Positions 19,346-25,156 of a stretch of 64,000 nucleotides of DNA are shown here, piece by piece. Under the pieces are notes generated by a model, which saw nothing but the letters and a program-made list of their open reading frames with translations, was not told the DNA's origin and ran no database searches. This DNA is from Leuconostoc lactis (lineage in GTDB: Bacteria; Bacillota; Bacilli; Lactobacillales; Lactobacillaceae). A program made the position numbers and the translations under genes. The stretch lies in the NCBI RefSeq assembly GCF_007954625.1, contig NZ_CP042420.1:1252501-1316500 (forward strand), read 5' to 3'. Within the stretch, counting starts at the first letter, position 1; the number at the start of each line of letters is the position of its first letter.

Positions 19346-21586
19346 TTATTTTCGCAAGACACGGAAGCCATAAAGCCCAAGGACACTAAGTAGTGAAACC
19401 GTGAAAATGGCAATTTGAGCACCGTAGTGTTGGGTTATTTTTTTCGGTGCGGGGTTGGAGTGTGCCGTTGCAGCTTTTTGAGGCGTAGTTGCATGAGACA
19501 CAGGCGCTTTTTTAGTGGGTGTCGTCGGCGCTGGGGTCGACTTGGGTGCTGTTGGCACAGTTGCAGCCGCTATTGGGGACATCGGCTGTTTCGCAGTGGT
19601 TACGGGTTGTGCCGATGTTTTTTTGGTAGACTGGGGCTGTGACAATACTGGTAATGATTGCCGTAATGCGCTTGATTGGCTGTTAGCCAATCGTGGTGTG
19701 GCTGCCTGATCGAACCCATAATCAGGTTTTAGTTGCAGATCAGGTGTTGTCTGCGGGATCTCAAAGATTGGCGCAGGTGAGGCCGGCGCAGCATTGGGAT
19801 CTTGTGACAATTTGAAATAGACTTGATAAGCATGATGATAATCAAAGCCAGGCAGATCAATGGCCACTTGCATATCTTCCAAAATAGCGGGTTGGGCTAA
19901 TTCGGCTGCCGAAAGTGGTAACGTATAGGTGAGAATATAGGCACTCCCGACTAGGTCAGCAGAAACTTGAGTGGCTTGCGTAAAGGCAATACTGTCTTTA
20001 CCGTAGTTAGCGGGGACATTCGCGGTGAAAGTTAAGCTGCCCGAGCCATCCGCATGTCGGGTTAACGTCGCTGTCGGTAAAATGTAATTGCTTGCTACGG
20101 AGGTTAACTTCTGATTGTCGCCCTTCATGACGGACAATGTCACCGGTTCTGGCGCAACATCGGGTGTTGGGGTGGGGGTGACGACAGTCTGCACCAATTT
20201 AATTGGTTGGATGAGGGACCCGCTAAATCGACTACTGAGTTTGTTAGCGCCAGCTGCATTGTCCCATGAGAAGCTGGTTTGCCCATCGCCAGTCAGACCT
20301 GAATAGTTAATTTGGTCAAGGTTGACCGTGGCATTCAGCCCGCTTTGGTACGTTAGTGGAATCACGGTACCATCAATGGCTTTAGCCGAGAGGTGCGTGT
20401 TAAATTGGGCGGTATCACTTGGGATAGTCAACGTTGGCATGGTGACAAATTGGAATTTAGCGTTGAGGTAGGTCAACTTTTTGAGCATTTTTAGTGGACT
20501 CAAATCTCGTACTTGGTTACGTAAAATGGTTAAATTCCCGAGTTGGGTGAGATTTGCCAAGGGCGATAAATCCGTGACCTGGTTGTTGGATAAAGACAAA
20601 TTCGCCAACTGGGTCAGACCAGCTAGCGGTGATAAATCACTAACCGCATCTTTACTGAAATCAAGATCGGTTAATTGTTTTAAACCGGCCAACGGTGATA
20701 AATCAGAAATGGTTCCGTTGAAATCAATCGCCAAATCTTGTAGATTTGTCATGTTCGCCACGAGTTTCAAATCTTGGTCAGTCATGCCTAATTGTGAGAG
20801 ATTCAGTTTTTTGAGTTGGGTTAAACGTTGTAACACACCAATGTTTGTTTGTGGGTTATTCCCAGTTGTGAGGCTGGTGAGGTGGCTGAGATTCGCAACA
20901 GGGCGCCAATCTGCGATTTGGTTACTGCCAAGGCTTAATGTCGTCAGCAACGGAAAGTTTGCGAGTCCGGTCACATCTGTGAGTTTGTTTCCGGATAAAT
21001 CAAGCGCAGTGAGGGGAGCGGTTGGCGCCAGTGGCGGTAGCGTGGTGAGTTTGCTGTTGACTAACTTGAGCGATTGTAGTTGTTTCAGTTGTGATAAACC
21101 GGCCAGTTGTTGTGGCGCCGTGCCATAAGCATCCCCAACGAGGTTTAACTGTTGGATGGGCGCTTGCCCTAATTTTGCTAAATCGGGCAGTTGATCAGCT
21201 TTATTTAGACGTAAGCTCAGGTCGGTTAATTGTGTTAAGTGCTGCAGTGGTGATAGATCACTGATGGCATTGCCGGTCAAATCTAATTGTTGCAGATTTT
21301 TGGCGAATTCTAGCCCTTTTAAATTGGTAATATCACTATACGTTAAATTAACTGTTGTCAATTTAGCCAAATTGGCCTGTGTCAGTGGGACATCTGGTCC
21401 GAGGAGCTGTTGCAAATTGGTTTGCAAATTTTTATCGGGCAACCAAGTTGCTAAATCTGTTTCAGGTTGTGCGAGGGTTGGCGCACTACCTGTAACGTCA
21501 GCTGCAGCGATTCTCTGGGGTGACGTTGCAACGACTGTTGCAAGTGCGGCAGTTGCCAAGAAAACCGTCACGTGTTTTCGACTCAT
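19346..21586 (-). CDS. Leucine-rich repeat surface protein with a NEAT (haem-binding) domain
   Basis: Order: signal peptide (about 1-29, ending ...RIAAA); internalin-like leucine-rich repeats (about 70-395; unit of the type LANLTQLGNLTILRNQVRDL); an Ig-like adjacent stretch (about 395-465); a NEAT domain (about 482-596); a Pro/Thr/Ala-rich spacer (about 600-712); a C-terminal transmembrane helix with tail FRVLRK. NEAT hallmarks are the first-helix motif SVASNY (S496, Y501) and the haem-ligating YxxxY as Y583-H-H-A-Y587. The closest architecture I know is Bacillus cereus IlsA, which takes haem from host proteins. There is no LPXTG motif. The gene is divergent from a NEAT-ABC transporter operon. 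Function is inferred from domains and context. RBS AGGA, ATG 21586. Confidence 0.88.
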   Translation of the reverse strand: MSRKHVTVFLATAALATVVATSPQRIAAADVTGSAPTLAQPETDLATWLPDKNLQTNLQQLLGPDVPLTQANLAKLTTVNLTYSDITNLKGLEFAKNLQQLDLTGNAISDLSPLQHLTQLTDLSLRLNKADQLPDLAKLGQAPIQQLNLVGDAYGTAPQQLAGLSQLKQLQSLKLVNSKLTTLPPLAPTAPLTALDLSGNKLTDVTGLANFPLLTTLSLGSNQIADWRPVANLSHLTSLTTGNNPQTNIGVLQRLTQLKKLNLSQLGMTDQDLKLVANMTNLQDLAIDFNGTISDLSPLAGLKQLTDLDFSKDAVSDLSPLAGLTQLANLSLSNNQVTDLSPLANLTQLGNLTILRNQVRDLSPLKMLKKLTYLNAKFQFVTMPTLTIPSDTAQFNTHLSAKAIDGTVIPLTYQSGLNATVNLDQINYSGLTGDGQTSFSWDNAAGANKLSSRFSGSLIQPIKLVQTVVTPTPTPDVAPEPVTLSVMKGDNQKLTSVASNYILPTATLTRHADGSGSLTFTANVPANYGKDSIAFTQATQVSADLVGSAYILTYTLPLSAAELAQPAILEDMQVAIDLPGFDYHHAYQVYFKLSQDPNAAPASPAPIFEIPQTTPDLQLKPDYGFDQAATPRLANSQSSALRQSLPVLSQPQSTKKTSAQPVTTAKQPMSPIAAATVPTAPKSTPAPTTPTKKAPVSHATTPQKAATAHSNPAPKKITQHYGAQIAIFTVSLLSVLGLYGFRVLRK

Positions 21587-21636
21587 GAGCTATTATCCTA
21601 TCTTTCCTATTCTACTGTCAAAGAGACTAAGGCATT

Positions 21637-21665
21637 ATTGTATCGCATTGCTTCTCATTTCACAA
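21637..21665 (-). promoter_or_regulatory. Candidate promoter of the LRR-NEAT gene
   Basis: Minus-strand TTGTGA and TACAAT with 17-base spacing, about 50 bases before the start codon. A TTGACA closer to the gene would place the start site on the ATG itself, so it is less likely. Confidence 0.5.
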
Positions 21666-21856
21666 TTTTATGCAAAGCGTGATGGTGCCTGGGTTAAAAG
21701 CGCATGAAAAATAGCCGAAAATCCCCAGCTATCAAGGCATTTCACGCTTATCAAAGGGTATATAATGAAGTATTTGACCGGTTTTATGGTAAATACGTCA
21801 ATCGTAATAAAACGCGCGTATTGTTACGGTGCCAATGGGTCACACGTCTTATCATT

Positions 21857-21870
21857 TGATAAATTTATCA
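21857..21870. promoter_or_regulatory. Palindromic candidate operator 1
   Basis: TGATAAATTTATCA is a perfect 14-base palindrome. It resembles half-sites of Fur boxes (TGATAAT-N-ATTATCA) but lacks the central base, so the regulator is unknown. It lies about 30 bases upstream of the -10 of the NEAT operon. Confidence 0.5.
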
Positions 21871-21882
21871 CATTATAAAACT

Positions 21883-21898
21883 TTTTGACTTGTCAAAA
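21883..21898. promoter_or_regulatory. Palindromic candidate operator 2
   Basis: TTTTGAC-TT-GTCAAAA, perfect seven-base arms, sits just upstream of the TATAAT at 21902, over the position of the -35 box and spacer. A bound repressor there would block transcription. Confidence 0.55.
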
Positions 21899-21928
21899 CG
21901 ATATAATGGGTCTATTGCCTTTTTAGGG

Positions 21929-21951
21929 GTTGCCGTGATAAAGGCGGCAAC
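21929..21951 (+). other. Stem-loop in the leader of the NEAT-ABC operon
   Basis: GTTGCCG / CGGCAAC, perfect seven-base arms with a nine-base loop, no T-run. It could stabilise or regulate the mRNA; role unknown. Confidence 0.45.
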
Positions 21952-21981
21952 AGTGAGAAATAACGTTTGGTGGAGGTTGGT

Positions 21982-22773
21982 GTGTTTAAAAAAATTGTTT
22001 TTGGGTGTCTAGTTGGCGCCATTGTTGGGACTGCTGACATGACCCGTGTGCAGGCTCAAGCGATACCTTATCAGGTCTTGAAGTACGGAACGCATGACGT
22101 GTCGTATGCCAGTGCTTATTTTGTGACGCCGGGTGACTTAGTGCCAGCTGGCGACCAGTATCGGGCGCAACTTGTCATTGCAACACAGCACGAGTTAGGT
22201 CGGTTTCCAGTGACTATTTTGACGATTAATCAACAAAAACCAACGGTCACTCAGAGCACACAAGGTAATACCGACTATTATACATTTAGCTTTCTGGTCA
22301 AAAATCCCAATACGCTGTTAAGTGGCACGATGAAAGTTGACGTTGCGAGTTTAAATTATCACCATACTTATGATTTTAATTTGCAGTTTGATGCCAAAAA
22401 TTTGCCAGCGGTAACACAATCAGCAACTACTACCACTGGGCAGGCGCAACAATCAGTACCAGCGTCAGCTGCTAGTCAAGCCGATAACCAATCCAGCACA
22501 TCGGCCACCGCAGCGTCGCAGCAAGTGGTGCCGTCAGCTAACAGTAGCAGTAATGTCCAACCAGCAGCCGATCAACCAACGCCGGCGGCTGCGTCGTCGT
22601 CAACCCAACTGGCAACCTCGCAGGCTGCCAGTGTTACCAAAGCGGCAACACCAACGCCACAACGTCATCAACAAGCGCCGCTATGGCCGGCAGCCTTAGC
22701 AGGGGTCTTGTTGGGCGGGCTTGGTGTCGTTGGGCATATCGTTTGGACCAAAAAACGACAGAAAGTGAGTTAA
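21982..22773 (+). CDS. NEAT-domain surface protein (IsdC-like haem relay)
   Basis: A 263-residue exported protein: signal segment (about 1-27, ending VQAQA), one NEAT domain (about 29-138), an Ala/Gln/Ser/Thr-rich linker, then a transmembrane helix (about 232-252) and tail KKRQK. NEAT hallmarks: IPYQVLKYGT at the start as in IsdC, SYASAYF (S41, Y46) for the haem-covering helix, and Y126-H-H-T-Y130 for haem ligation. There is no LPXTG motif, so it is probably membrane-held. I chose GTG 21982, five bases after GGAGG; TTG 21967 is upstream of the Shine-Dalgarno. First gene of a four-gene operon with a binding protein, permease and ATPase. Confidence 0.87.
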   Translation: MFKKIVFGCLVGAIVGTADMTRVQAQAIPYQVLKYGTHDVSYASAYFVTPGDLVPAGDQYRAQLVIATQHELGRFPVTILTINQQKPTVTQSTQGNTDYYTFSFLVKNPNTLLSGTMKVDVASLNYHHTYDFNLQFDAKNLPAVTQSATTTTGQAQQSVPASAASQADNQSSTSATAASQQVVPSANSSSNVQPAADQPTPAAASSSTQLATSQAASVTKAATPTPQRHQQAPLWPAALAGVLLGGLGVVGHIVWTKKRQKVS

Positions 22774-22774
22774 C

Positions 22775-23629
22775 ATGGCTAAAAAACAGGTGTTGGTTAG
22801 TGGTGTGATTTTGATAATGCTCCTAATCGGTGGTGCTGGCTATGCGGTGACACAACGGCAAGCGCACCCAGCAAAACGACCGGTTGCGACAACGATGGCA
22901 CAAGTGGCGATTTTTGATCGGTTGGGGGTACCGCTAGCCGCTGTGCCAACCAGTCAAGAACCGCTACCACCGCGTTATGCGCAGTTGCCAAAAGTCGGCA
23001 ACCATGTGAGTGTCAATTTTGAACAAATTCTCCGTGTTCACCCCAGCGTGGTGTATGTTGATGCGGCTTTAACGGCGGATTATGCCACCAAACTAAAGGC
23101 CAGTCAGATTAAAATGACGGCACTTGATTTCACAACTTATCAGCAGTTGACGCGCAATATTTTGCAACTTGGCATGACTTATCATCAAGTTGCGTCAGCC
23201 CAGAAGTTATTGAGAACGCTTAAGTTGCCACCAAAAACGCTCAAAAAACCAGTGAAGGTTTTAATTTTGGTGGGGATGCCTGGCGGTGGCTTCTTGGTGG
23301 CAAATGCGCACAGTTATCTCGGTGATTTGGTTAAACGTGCCGGCGGTGAAGTCGTTGGCGGTGATGTGAATCAGTCTTTGACCACACCAAATCCACAAGC
23401 GATTGCCCAAGAAAATCCCGCTGTTGTGATACGACTGGCTCATGCGATGCCAACCCAGGTCAAGCAGAGTTTTGATCAAATATTTCAGCAAGCGCCTTAT
23501 GCGCATTTAAAGGCGACGCAATCAGGTCAAATTCATGATGTCTCGGCCCCTGATTTTGGGATGACGGCAAACTTACAAGTCGTGACGGCCTATCGCGATA
23601 TTCAACAATGGCTGGCGGTGGCGCAATGA
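22775..23629 (+). CDS. IsdE-like haem ABC transporter substrate-binding protein
   Basis: Periplasmic-binding-protein fold of the Fe/B12/haem class (284 residues). It follows S. aureus IsdE closely in several stretches: VPTSQEPLPPRY, VLILVGMPGG, SYLGDLVKRAGG, RLAHAMPTQVK and FGMTANL. IsdE binds haem through Met78 and His229. Here H223 matches His229, but the Met78 position is Val78, preceded by His77 (GNHVS against GQPME). The N-terminus is a transmembrane segment (about 5-25) without a lipobox Cys, so it is anchored by helix rather than lipid. It starts one base after the NEAT gene stop and overlaps the permease by four bases. Haem as ligand is inferred. Confidence 0.87.
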   Translation: MAKKQVLVSGVILIMLLIGGAGYAVTQRQAHPAKRPVATTMAQVAIFDRLGVPLAAVPTSQEPLPPRYAQLPKVGNHVSVNFEQILRVHPSVVYVDAALTADYATKLKASQIKMTALDFTTYQQLTRNILQLGMTYHQVASAQKLLRTLKLPPKTLKKPVKVLILVGMPGGGFLVANAHSYLGDLVKRAGGEVVGGDVNQSLTTPNPQAIAQENPAVVIRLAHAMPTQVKQSFDQIFQQAPYAHLKATQSGQIHDVSAPDFGMTANLQVVTAYRDIQQWLAVAQ

Positions 23630-24531
23630 GACGATGGGGGATGCTGATCTTGTATTTGGGTATTGTGTTAGTGGTGGTGATAACATTGGGCTTTCCGTTA
23701 GGAAATCAATGGCCGAGTTGGGATATTTTTTGGCAATTGCGCTTGCCCCGCGTTCTGTTCGCTTTAATAGGTGGAGCAATGCTAGCAGTTAGTGCCTTGA
23801 TTTTCCAAACAACTTTACGACATCACTATATTGATGCCAGTATGCTGGGCTTGGCGAGTGGCAGTGAGTTAGGCCTAGCGTTATTGACGGTAATCTGGGC
23901 GCCCGCGCTGACCTATCGCGTGGCCATTGGGGCCATGCTGGCGATGGGGTGGTTAGTTGTATTGCGCCGCAGTGTCTTAAAAATGGGCCGCCAACCTCTA
24001 TTGTTGCCACTGGGTGGACTCGCGTTGGCGTTGTTTTTCAATGCTGGCACCAGTTTACTGACTAACCAACAAGGTTTGCTGGGGAAGTCACTGGCCAACG
24101 TGACCGTGACCGACACTTGGTTGTTAACCGTGATTGGTTTGATGGGGCTAATCTTCATACAATTGCGACCGGCACAATTAGCATTATTTGCTTTGTCGCA
24201 GGGCCATATTGCACGCTTGGGCTATCCTGAATCGCGATTAAGTTGGCCCTGGCAGCTTGTCGCAGCAGGTTATATTGGTGCGGTGAGTGCTGTATTAGGG
24301 ACAATTTTTTTTGTGGGGCTAATCGTAGCGCAATTAGTGCGTTTTTGGTTTGGTGGCAGTGCGCAACAACGCTTGTTACCAACTGCGTTGTTCGGTACAT
24401 TGGTCTTGAGTTTGAGTGATATGCTGGCCCATAGTAGCCGCTATCCGATTGAATTACCAACGGGGGCAATGCTGATGTTACTAACAGCCCCATTTTTTAT
24501 GGTTTTATGGTGGCGACAATATGAAAATTAA
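23626..24531 (+). CDS. FecCD-family ABC transporter permease (IsdF-like)
   Basis: Integral membrane permease of the iron-siderophore/haem class, 301 residues from ATG 23626, which overlaps the upstream stop as ATGA; the open frame from 23608 only adds residues inside the binding-protein gene. Family features: RLPRVLFALIGGAMLAVSALIFQ near the start, LGLASGSELG, and GTIFFVGLIVAQLVRFWFG near the coupling region. About eight to nine hydrophobic helices are visible. It works with the downstream ATPase, with which it overlaps by 11 bases. Confidence 0.9.
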   Translation: MRRWGMLILYLGIVLVVVITLGFPLGNQWPSWDIFWQLRLPRVLFALIGGAMLAVSALIFQTTLRHHYIDASMLGLASGSELGLALLTVIWAPALTYRVAIGAMLAMGWLVVLRRSVLKMGRQPLLLPLGGLALALFFNAGTSLLTNQQGLLGKSLANVTVTDTWLLTVIGLMGLIFIQLRPAQLALFALSQGHIARLGYPESRLSWPWQLVAAGYIGAVSAVLGTIFFVGLIVAQLVRFWFGGSAQQRLLPTALFGTLVLSLSDMLAHSSRYPIELPTGAMLMLLTAPFFMVLWWRQYEN

Positions 24532-25156
24532 CGACTTAACCTTGCCACGTGATCTATTGCACGAACAGACGGTATGCTGGCCTGATCAAGGCATAACCGT
24601 GATGCTTGGTCAAAATGGGGTTGGGAAATCAACGTTACTAGCTGAATTAGCCCGTCGATTACCGGAAGCGGCTTATTTACCGCAAAAAAATGACATTTAC
24701 GACGATATTTCGGTACAAGCGGTGCTAGCACTTGGCCAGCAACGTGCGACCCAACCTACACGTCTTGATGTGGTTGCGGCGTTTGATCTCGCACCTTTAC
24801 TGAAAACTGCCATGCGGACACTGTCTGGCGGTCAACAACAGCGCGTTTGGTTAGCATTTATGCTGGTCCAACAGGCACCAATTTTACTTCTAGACGAACC
24901 ACTGGCAGCTTTAGATTTACGCTATCAAAAACGGTTGACGCAGTTACTTGTGACAACACAGACAAGCGTGATCATGATTGTGCATGATTTGAACTATGCG
25001 CAACGGGTGGCAGATTGGGTCTGGATAATGCATGAACAGACTGTTATTGCCGGTACGCCAACGGAGATGTTGAATGATGCGCTATTATCCGCTGTTTTCC
25101 AGACGACGATTCAACATCAGGTCACGGTGGACGGACAGCGTTATTTTGATAGTTAA
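24521..25156 (+). CDS. ABC transporter ATP-binding protein (iron/haem type)
   Basis: Energises the haem/iron importer. Walker A GQNGVGKST, signature LSGGQQQRVWLA, Walker B ILLLDEPLAALD and the switch His in IMIVHDLNYAQ are present. At 211 residues it is shorter than usual FecE/FhuC proteins (about 250-260); the segment before Walker A and the helical subdomain are trimmed, but no key motif is lost. It overlaps the permease by 11 bases and is followed by a bidirectional terminator, which ends the operon. Confidence 0.92.
   Translation: MKINDLTLPRDLLHEQTVCWPDQGITVMLGQNGVGKSTLLAELARRLPEAAYLPQKNDIYDDISVQAVLALGQQRATQPTRLDVVAAFDLAPLLKTAMRTLSGGQQQRVWLAFMLVQQAPILLLDEPLAALDLRYQKRLTQLLVTTQTSVIMIVHDLNYAQRVADWVWIMHEQTVIAGTPTEMLNDALLSAVFQTTIQHQVTVDGQRYFDS

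Follow-up and report, generated by a model that had tools for sequence, protein, structure and literature searches.

A predicted NEAT- and IsdE-type haem importer in Leuconostoc lactis

Described NEAT systems and the Leuconostoc locus

The Isd system of Staphylococcus aureus (IsdA/IsdC-IsdE-IsdF) is the reference point for a locus of Leuconostoc lactis found at positions 19346-25156 of the 64,000-nucleotide stretch analysed here (the window; contig NZ_CP042420.1), where the minus-strand gene of a leucine-rich repeat (LRR) surface protein diverges from an operon encoding a NEAT protein, an IsdE-like substrate-binding protein (SBP), a FecCD permease and an ATPase (Table 1). We consider it probable that the two NEAT-type surface proteins and the IsdE-type ABC importer bring intact haem into Leuconostoc, likely for cytochrome bd and not for the release of iron. 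Many lactic acid bacteria have cytochrome bd yet rely on external haem, and a NEAT/IsdE-type importer whose occurrence follows that of cydA in the Lactobacillaceae is a testable uptake candidate in food-use bacteria. If true, NEAT systems, mostly studied as iron piracy by pathogens, would be recast as suppliers of a respiratory cofactor.

In common with Isd, the locus has NEAT proteins bearing the SxxxxY and YxxxY motifs, an IsdC-like protein followed by an IsdE-like protein, a FecCD permease and the His229 ligand. It differs in having no sortase B, sorting motifs, IsdD or IsdG, in an operon that includes the ATPase gene, in an SBP without lipobox in which His77 is present and Met78 lost, and in an LRR-NEAT protein in place of IsdA/B/H. 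The C-termini of both surface proteins are devoid of an LPXTG-type motif, no sortase gene lies in the window (the two sortase matches of the genome fall outside it), and both equivalog cut-offs are missed (IsdC-like protein, 54.4 bits against TIGR03656, cut-off 155.85; SBP, 200.2 bits against TIGR03659, cut-off 298.65). An earlier reading of the letters (the original prediction) had announced a complete Isd-like haem-acquisition locus, undescribed in such bacteria. Its two divergent transcripts and five genes are real, with gene order and Pfam domains as claimed, and the IsdE-type importer stands; completeness and novelty do not. The locus is not a complete Isd system; it belongs to a set of as yet uncharacterised importers of the Lactobacillaceae with a binding protein that is distinct.

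In the Listeria SBP Lmo2184 (5joq) the signal stretch ends in a cysteine and the alignment shows a methionine at the ligand position, both of which are absent from the Leuconostoc SBP. NEAT surface proteins of known architecture include the Hbp proteins of Listeria as well as Bacillus anthracis Hal and Streptococcus pyogenes Shr, the last two combining NEAT domains with LRRs. In contrast to Hal and Shr, the LRRs form most of the Leuconostoc protein and lie N-terminal to its NEAT domain, and its gene is divergent from the importer operon.

Among lactic acid bacteria, 50 NEAT domains of Lactobacillales form an uncharacterised cluster (PMC4143258), and a NEAT and LRR-NEAT protein pair has been reported from the fliD region of Periweissella (PMC10745875). 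These publications, together with the NEAT genomes counted below, remove the claim of novelty. The closest layout outside Leuconostoc among the NEAT regions examined is that of genome G056 (L054, 4980-15600), in which the same divergent five genes stand beside two flagellin-like genes and the transporter proteins are 52-56% identical to ours. This setting fits the Periweissella fliD region, and G056 likely belongs to the species group of that study, whose section on this region names the two NEAT proteins but not an importer; the chromosomal position differs from that in Leuconostoc. Homologues of IsdA and IsdC with a suggested link to respiration are described in Carnobacterium, a lactic acid bacterium of another family, in passages that mention neither an LRR-NEAT protein nor a His77 variant (PMC5341603). 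Gram-positive haem import is also known from Staphylococcus lugdunensis and the lactic acid bacterium Lactobacillus sakei, whose transporters are of the ECF type and not of the NEAT and IsdE type (PMC7299338). Among the matches listed in a search of open-licence literature for Leuconostoc with NEAT, Isd or haem, no paper concerned this importer. What is new is an SBP without lipobox and with a His77 variant that keeps His229, the association of NEAT with cydA, a host that has cydA but no match to the searched families of haem synthesis, haem degradation and catalase, and an empty site in 13 other Leuconostoc genomes.

Surface proteins and haem ligands

The IsdC-like protein matches Pfam NEAT (PF05031) at 49.4 bits, above the curated cut-off of 32.8, so that at least one of the two surface proteins scores above threshold. 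The LRR protein has no PF05031 match at E <= 1 and was also missed by the whole-genome search; its domain is recognised as NEAT by predicted structure, the best 44 rows listed being all NEAT or Shp. The original prediction of two NEAT surface proteins is thus borne out by profile score for one and by predicted fold for the other. Both domains carry, as it stated, the SxxxxY helix and YxxxY strand that define haem-binding NEAT domains (PMC4143258): SVASNY and YHHAY in the LRR protein, SYASAY and YHHTY in the IsdC-like protein. A Weissella cibaria protein (P0051) has LRRs and both NEAT motifs yet no precomputed NEAT domain; the annotation of Weissella probably misses LRR-NEAT proteins.

The predicted structure of the SBP is bilobed and IsdE-like, and by both sequence and fold it is closest to IsdE and Listeria 5joq, the next row lying 6 Z units lower. 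The lipobox is absent, with no cysteine within the first 60 residues, and the structure model places a helix at residues 2-27; the protein would be held by a membrane tether instead of a lipid anchor. The axial haem ligands of IsdE are Met78 and His229 (PMC7815599). Where IsdE has Pro77-Met78, the window SBP has His77 and Val78, and His229 is kept as His223. His229 is conserved in 59 of 59 aligned SBP sequences, and in one branch of 37 (Leuconostoc, probably Periweissella, Liquorilactobacillus and Ligilactobacillus, and metagenome sequences) Pro77-Met78 is replaced by His77 followed by Val, Ile or Thr. We infer that His223 and His77 act as axial ligands in place of His229 and Met78 of IsdE, a predicted change that ordinary spectroscopy could check. 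Some residues speak against this assignment: His77 aligns with Pro77 of IsdE and not with Met78, which could leave the His77 side chain out of reach of the iron, and other possible ligands exist in Met168 and Tyr103 (each 37/37 in the His77 branch, versus 6/22 and 8/22 outside) and in Met225, conserved inside and outside the branch. The open-licence literature held nothing on point for a bis-histidine haem SBP among the matches listed.

On the proposed scheme, the LRR-NEAT protein would capture haem at the cell surface and the IsdC-like protein would pass it on to the tethered SBP, whose His223 and His77 would ligate it; the permease and ATPase would then carry it into the cell, and the intact haem would go to cytochrome bd. 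Haem binding and the direction and order of transfer are, like the client, predictions. More tentatively, and with more doubt than confidence, we suggest that the His77 sequences are a second branch of IsdE-type receptors, which has lost the lipid anchor as well as the methionine that serves as ligand. Such a receptor, tethered to the membrane, would bind haem through two histidines and deliver it undegraded to a respiratory oxidase, its bacterial hosts neither synthesising haem nor degrading it.

Use of the haem and distribution of the importer

A PF05031 search found NEAT in 42 of 161 Lactobacillaceae genomes (14 of 40 genera). The original prediction had proposed a comparison with cydA: this gene is present in 41 of the 42, versus 64 of the 119 others (Fisher p 3e-8, a statistic that ignores kinship), and in 39/40 versus 66/121 under a strict count that drops two NEAT matches below the Pfam cut-off (G136, 25.1 bits; G030, 25.2 bits). 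The host itself carries cydA. It has no match to URO-D (haem synthesis; 8/14 control genomes matched), in agreement with the earlier claim that bacteria of this type cannot make haem. It likewise has no match to PF03992 (ABM, to which we take IsdG to belong; 11/14 controls) or PF01126 (heme oxygenase; 3/14 controls), a negative covering these two families, HugZ-like and radical SAM proteins, which also degrade haem, having not been searched; the locus contains no haem-degradation gene. The catalase families searched gave no match in the host, and 0/19 Leuconostoc genomes carry catalase, so that of the two clients originally suggested cytochrome bd is retained and catalase rejected. The cydA association and the lack of URO-D, ABM and heme oxygenase matches favour a route in which haem is imported intact and used by cytochrome bd.

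Several observations weigh against this reading, beyond the neglect of kinship and the span of the degradation search. In G057, one of the NEAT genomes, no cydA was found. Within Leuconostoc, cydA is present in 19/19 genomes, as is sortase, but the SBP in only 3/19, so that respiration can do without this importer and a further route for haem is likely. The assembly of L. lactis KCTC 3528 is without 685 bp (L002 6834-7544; window 24391-25075), its permease being shortened and its ATPase essentially gone while the SBP and both surface-protein genes are still open; import by this route is therefore dispensable there. A sequenced Leuconostoc mesenteroides is reported to have cyd and menaquinone genes, yet the authors of that study saw no biomass gain from haem, although haem-induced cytochromes are reported for other strains (PMC2696406).

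The best-surviving alternative, which we hold unlikely, is that the same importer serves iron piracy, haem being degraded for its iron as in S. aureus. The homologous Isd and Listeria systems have a described role in iron supply (PMC7815599, PMC4143258), and the candidate palindrome upstream could respond to metal; nevertheless, the missing ABM, heme oxygenase and locus-borne degradation genes, and the tracking of cydA by NEAT, argue otherwise. It is less probable still that the surface proteins chiefly bind haem or host and food surfaces (buffering, detoxification or LRR-mediated adhesion) beside a marginal or decaying importer. The KCTC 3528 deletion would suit this, as would regions L046, L058, L059 and L069, where NEAT genes stand without an adjacent SBP, permease and ATPase set. 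However, the window and L. holzapfelii each carry an intact set of the five genes, the SBP dN/dS is 0.12, and NEAT, SBP, permease and ATPase genes occur together in 21 of 30 other genomes (one of the 21 ending at a contig end), as judged from 31 regions chosen non-randomly from match lists, two of them Leuconostoc. Finally, although many siderophore and vitamin B12 models fit the permease and ATPase roughly as closely as haem models do, a siderophore or B12 transporter with incidental NEAT neighbours, the refutation foreseen by the original prediction, is rejected as very improbable on the sequence and fold of the SBP and its conserved linkage to NEAT genes.

The SBP shares 95% identity with that of L. 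lactis KCTC 3528 (92.7-94.7% for the DNA of the locus) and 69% with that of L. holzapfelii. In the three carriers the locus sits between ackA and DHOD, which adjoin each other in 13 genomes without it (the gap is longer in G160, ~0.8 kb, and the DHOD match is split in G112). In a DHOD-gene tree of 16 genomes the three carriers form one branch (support 100/100), which together with the empty sites fits a single gain; since the tree is weak at its root and deep forks and only a distant DHOD paralogue was found in G161, G162 and G170, losses may have occurred instead. We infer that the locus was gained before L. lactis and L. holzapfelii separated. For the transfer-like makeup first proposed, the G+C content (47.6% for the locus, 44.3% for the window) is weak support.

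Among the low-scoring NEAT matches, that of G136 (L064) lies in a 1043-aa frame with no match to transporter genes nearby and was set aside. The match in G030 (L070 5827-7655) adjoins a gene with a possible ferrochelatase-like start.

Upstream region and features

One block of the promoter region hardly differs between the window, L. lactis and L. holzapfelii, even though the NEAT protein of the window shares only 46.6% identity with that of L. holzapfelii. The block contains the perfect 14-bp palindrome TGATAAATTTATCA and, just 5' of TATAAT, TTGACTTGTCAA. Even with one mismatch allowed, the palindrome occurs once in the genome (7 times for a reversed control pattern), and no regulon could be drawn from it; a Fur box was considered as its identity and nothing was found in support.

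Table 1. Features of the locus (window positions)
Feature	Position	Strand	Basis or remarks
LRR-NEAT surface protein	19346..21586	-	746 aa; signal sequence, LRRs and NEAT-fold domain, with a membrane anchor at the C-terminus that has no LPXTG
NEAT-fold domain of LRR protein, residues 476-598	19793..20161	-	Predicted fold; motifs SVASNY and YHHAY; below Pfam detection
Perfect palindrome TGATAAATTTATCA, candidate operator	21857..21870		Sequence; conserved in the loci of L. lactis and L. holzapfelii (L002, L003)
Palindrome TTTTGACTTGTCAAAA, candidate operator/promoter	21883..21898	+	Just 5' of TATAAT (21902-21907); core TTGACTTGTCAA kept in L002 and L003
IsdC-like NEAT protein	21982..22773	+	NEAT domain ~22060-22392; C-terminal membrane anchor, no sorting motif
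IsdE-like haem-binding protein (SBP), predicted membrane-tethered	22775..23629	+	His77 codon 23003-23005, His223 codon 23441-23443
FecCD-type permease	23608..24531	+	Pfam domain, profile matches
ABC ATPase	24521..25156	+	Pfam domain, profile matches
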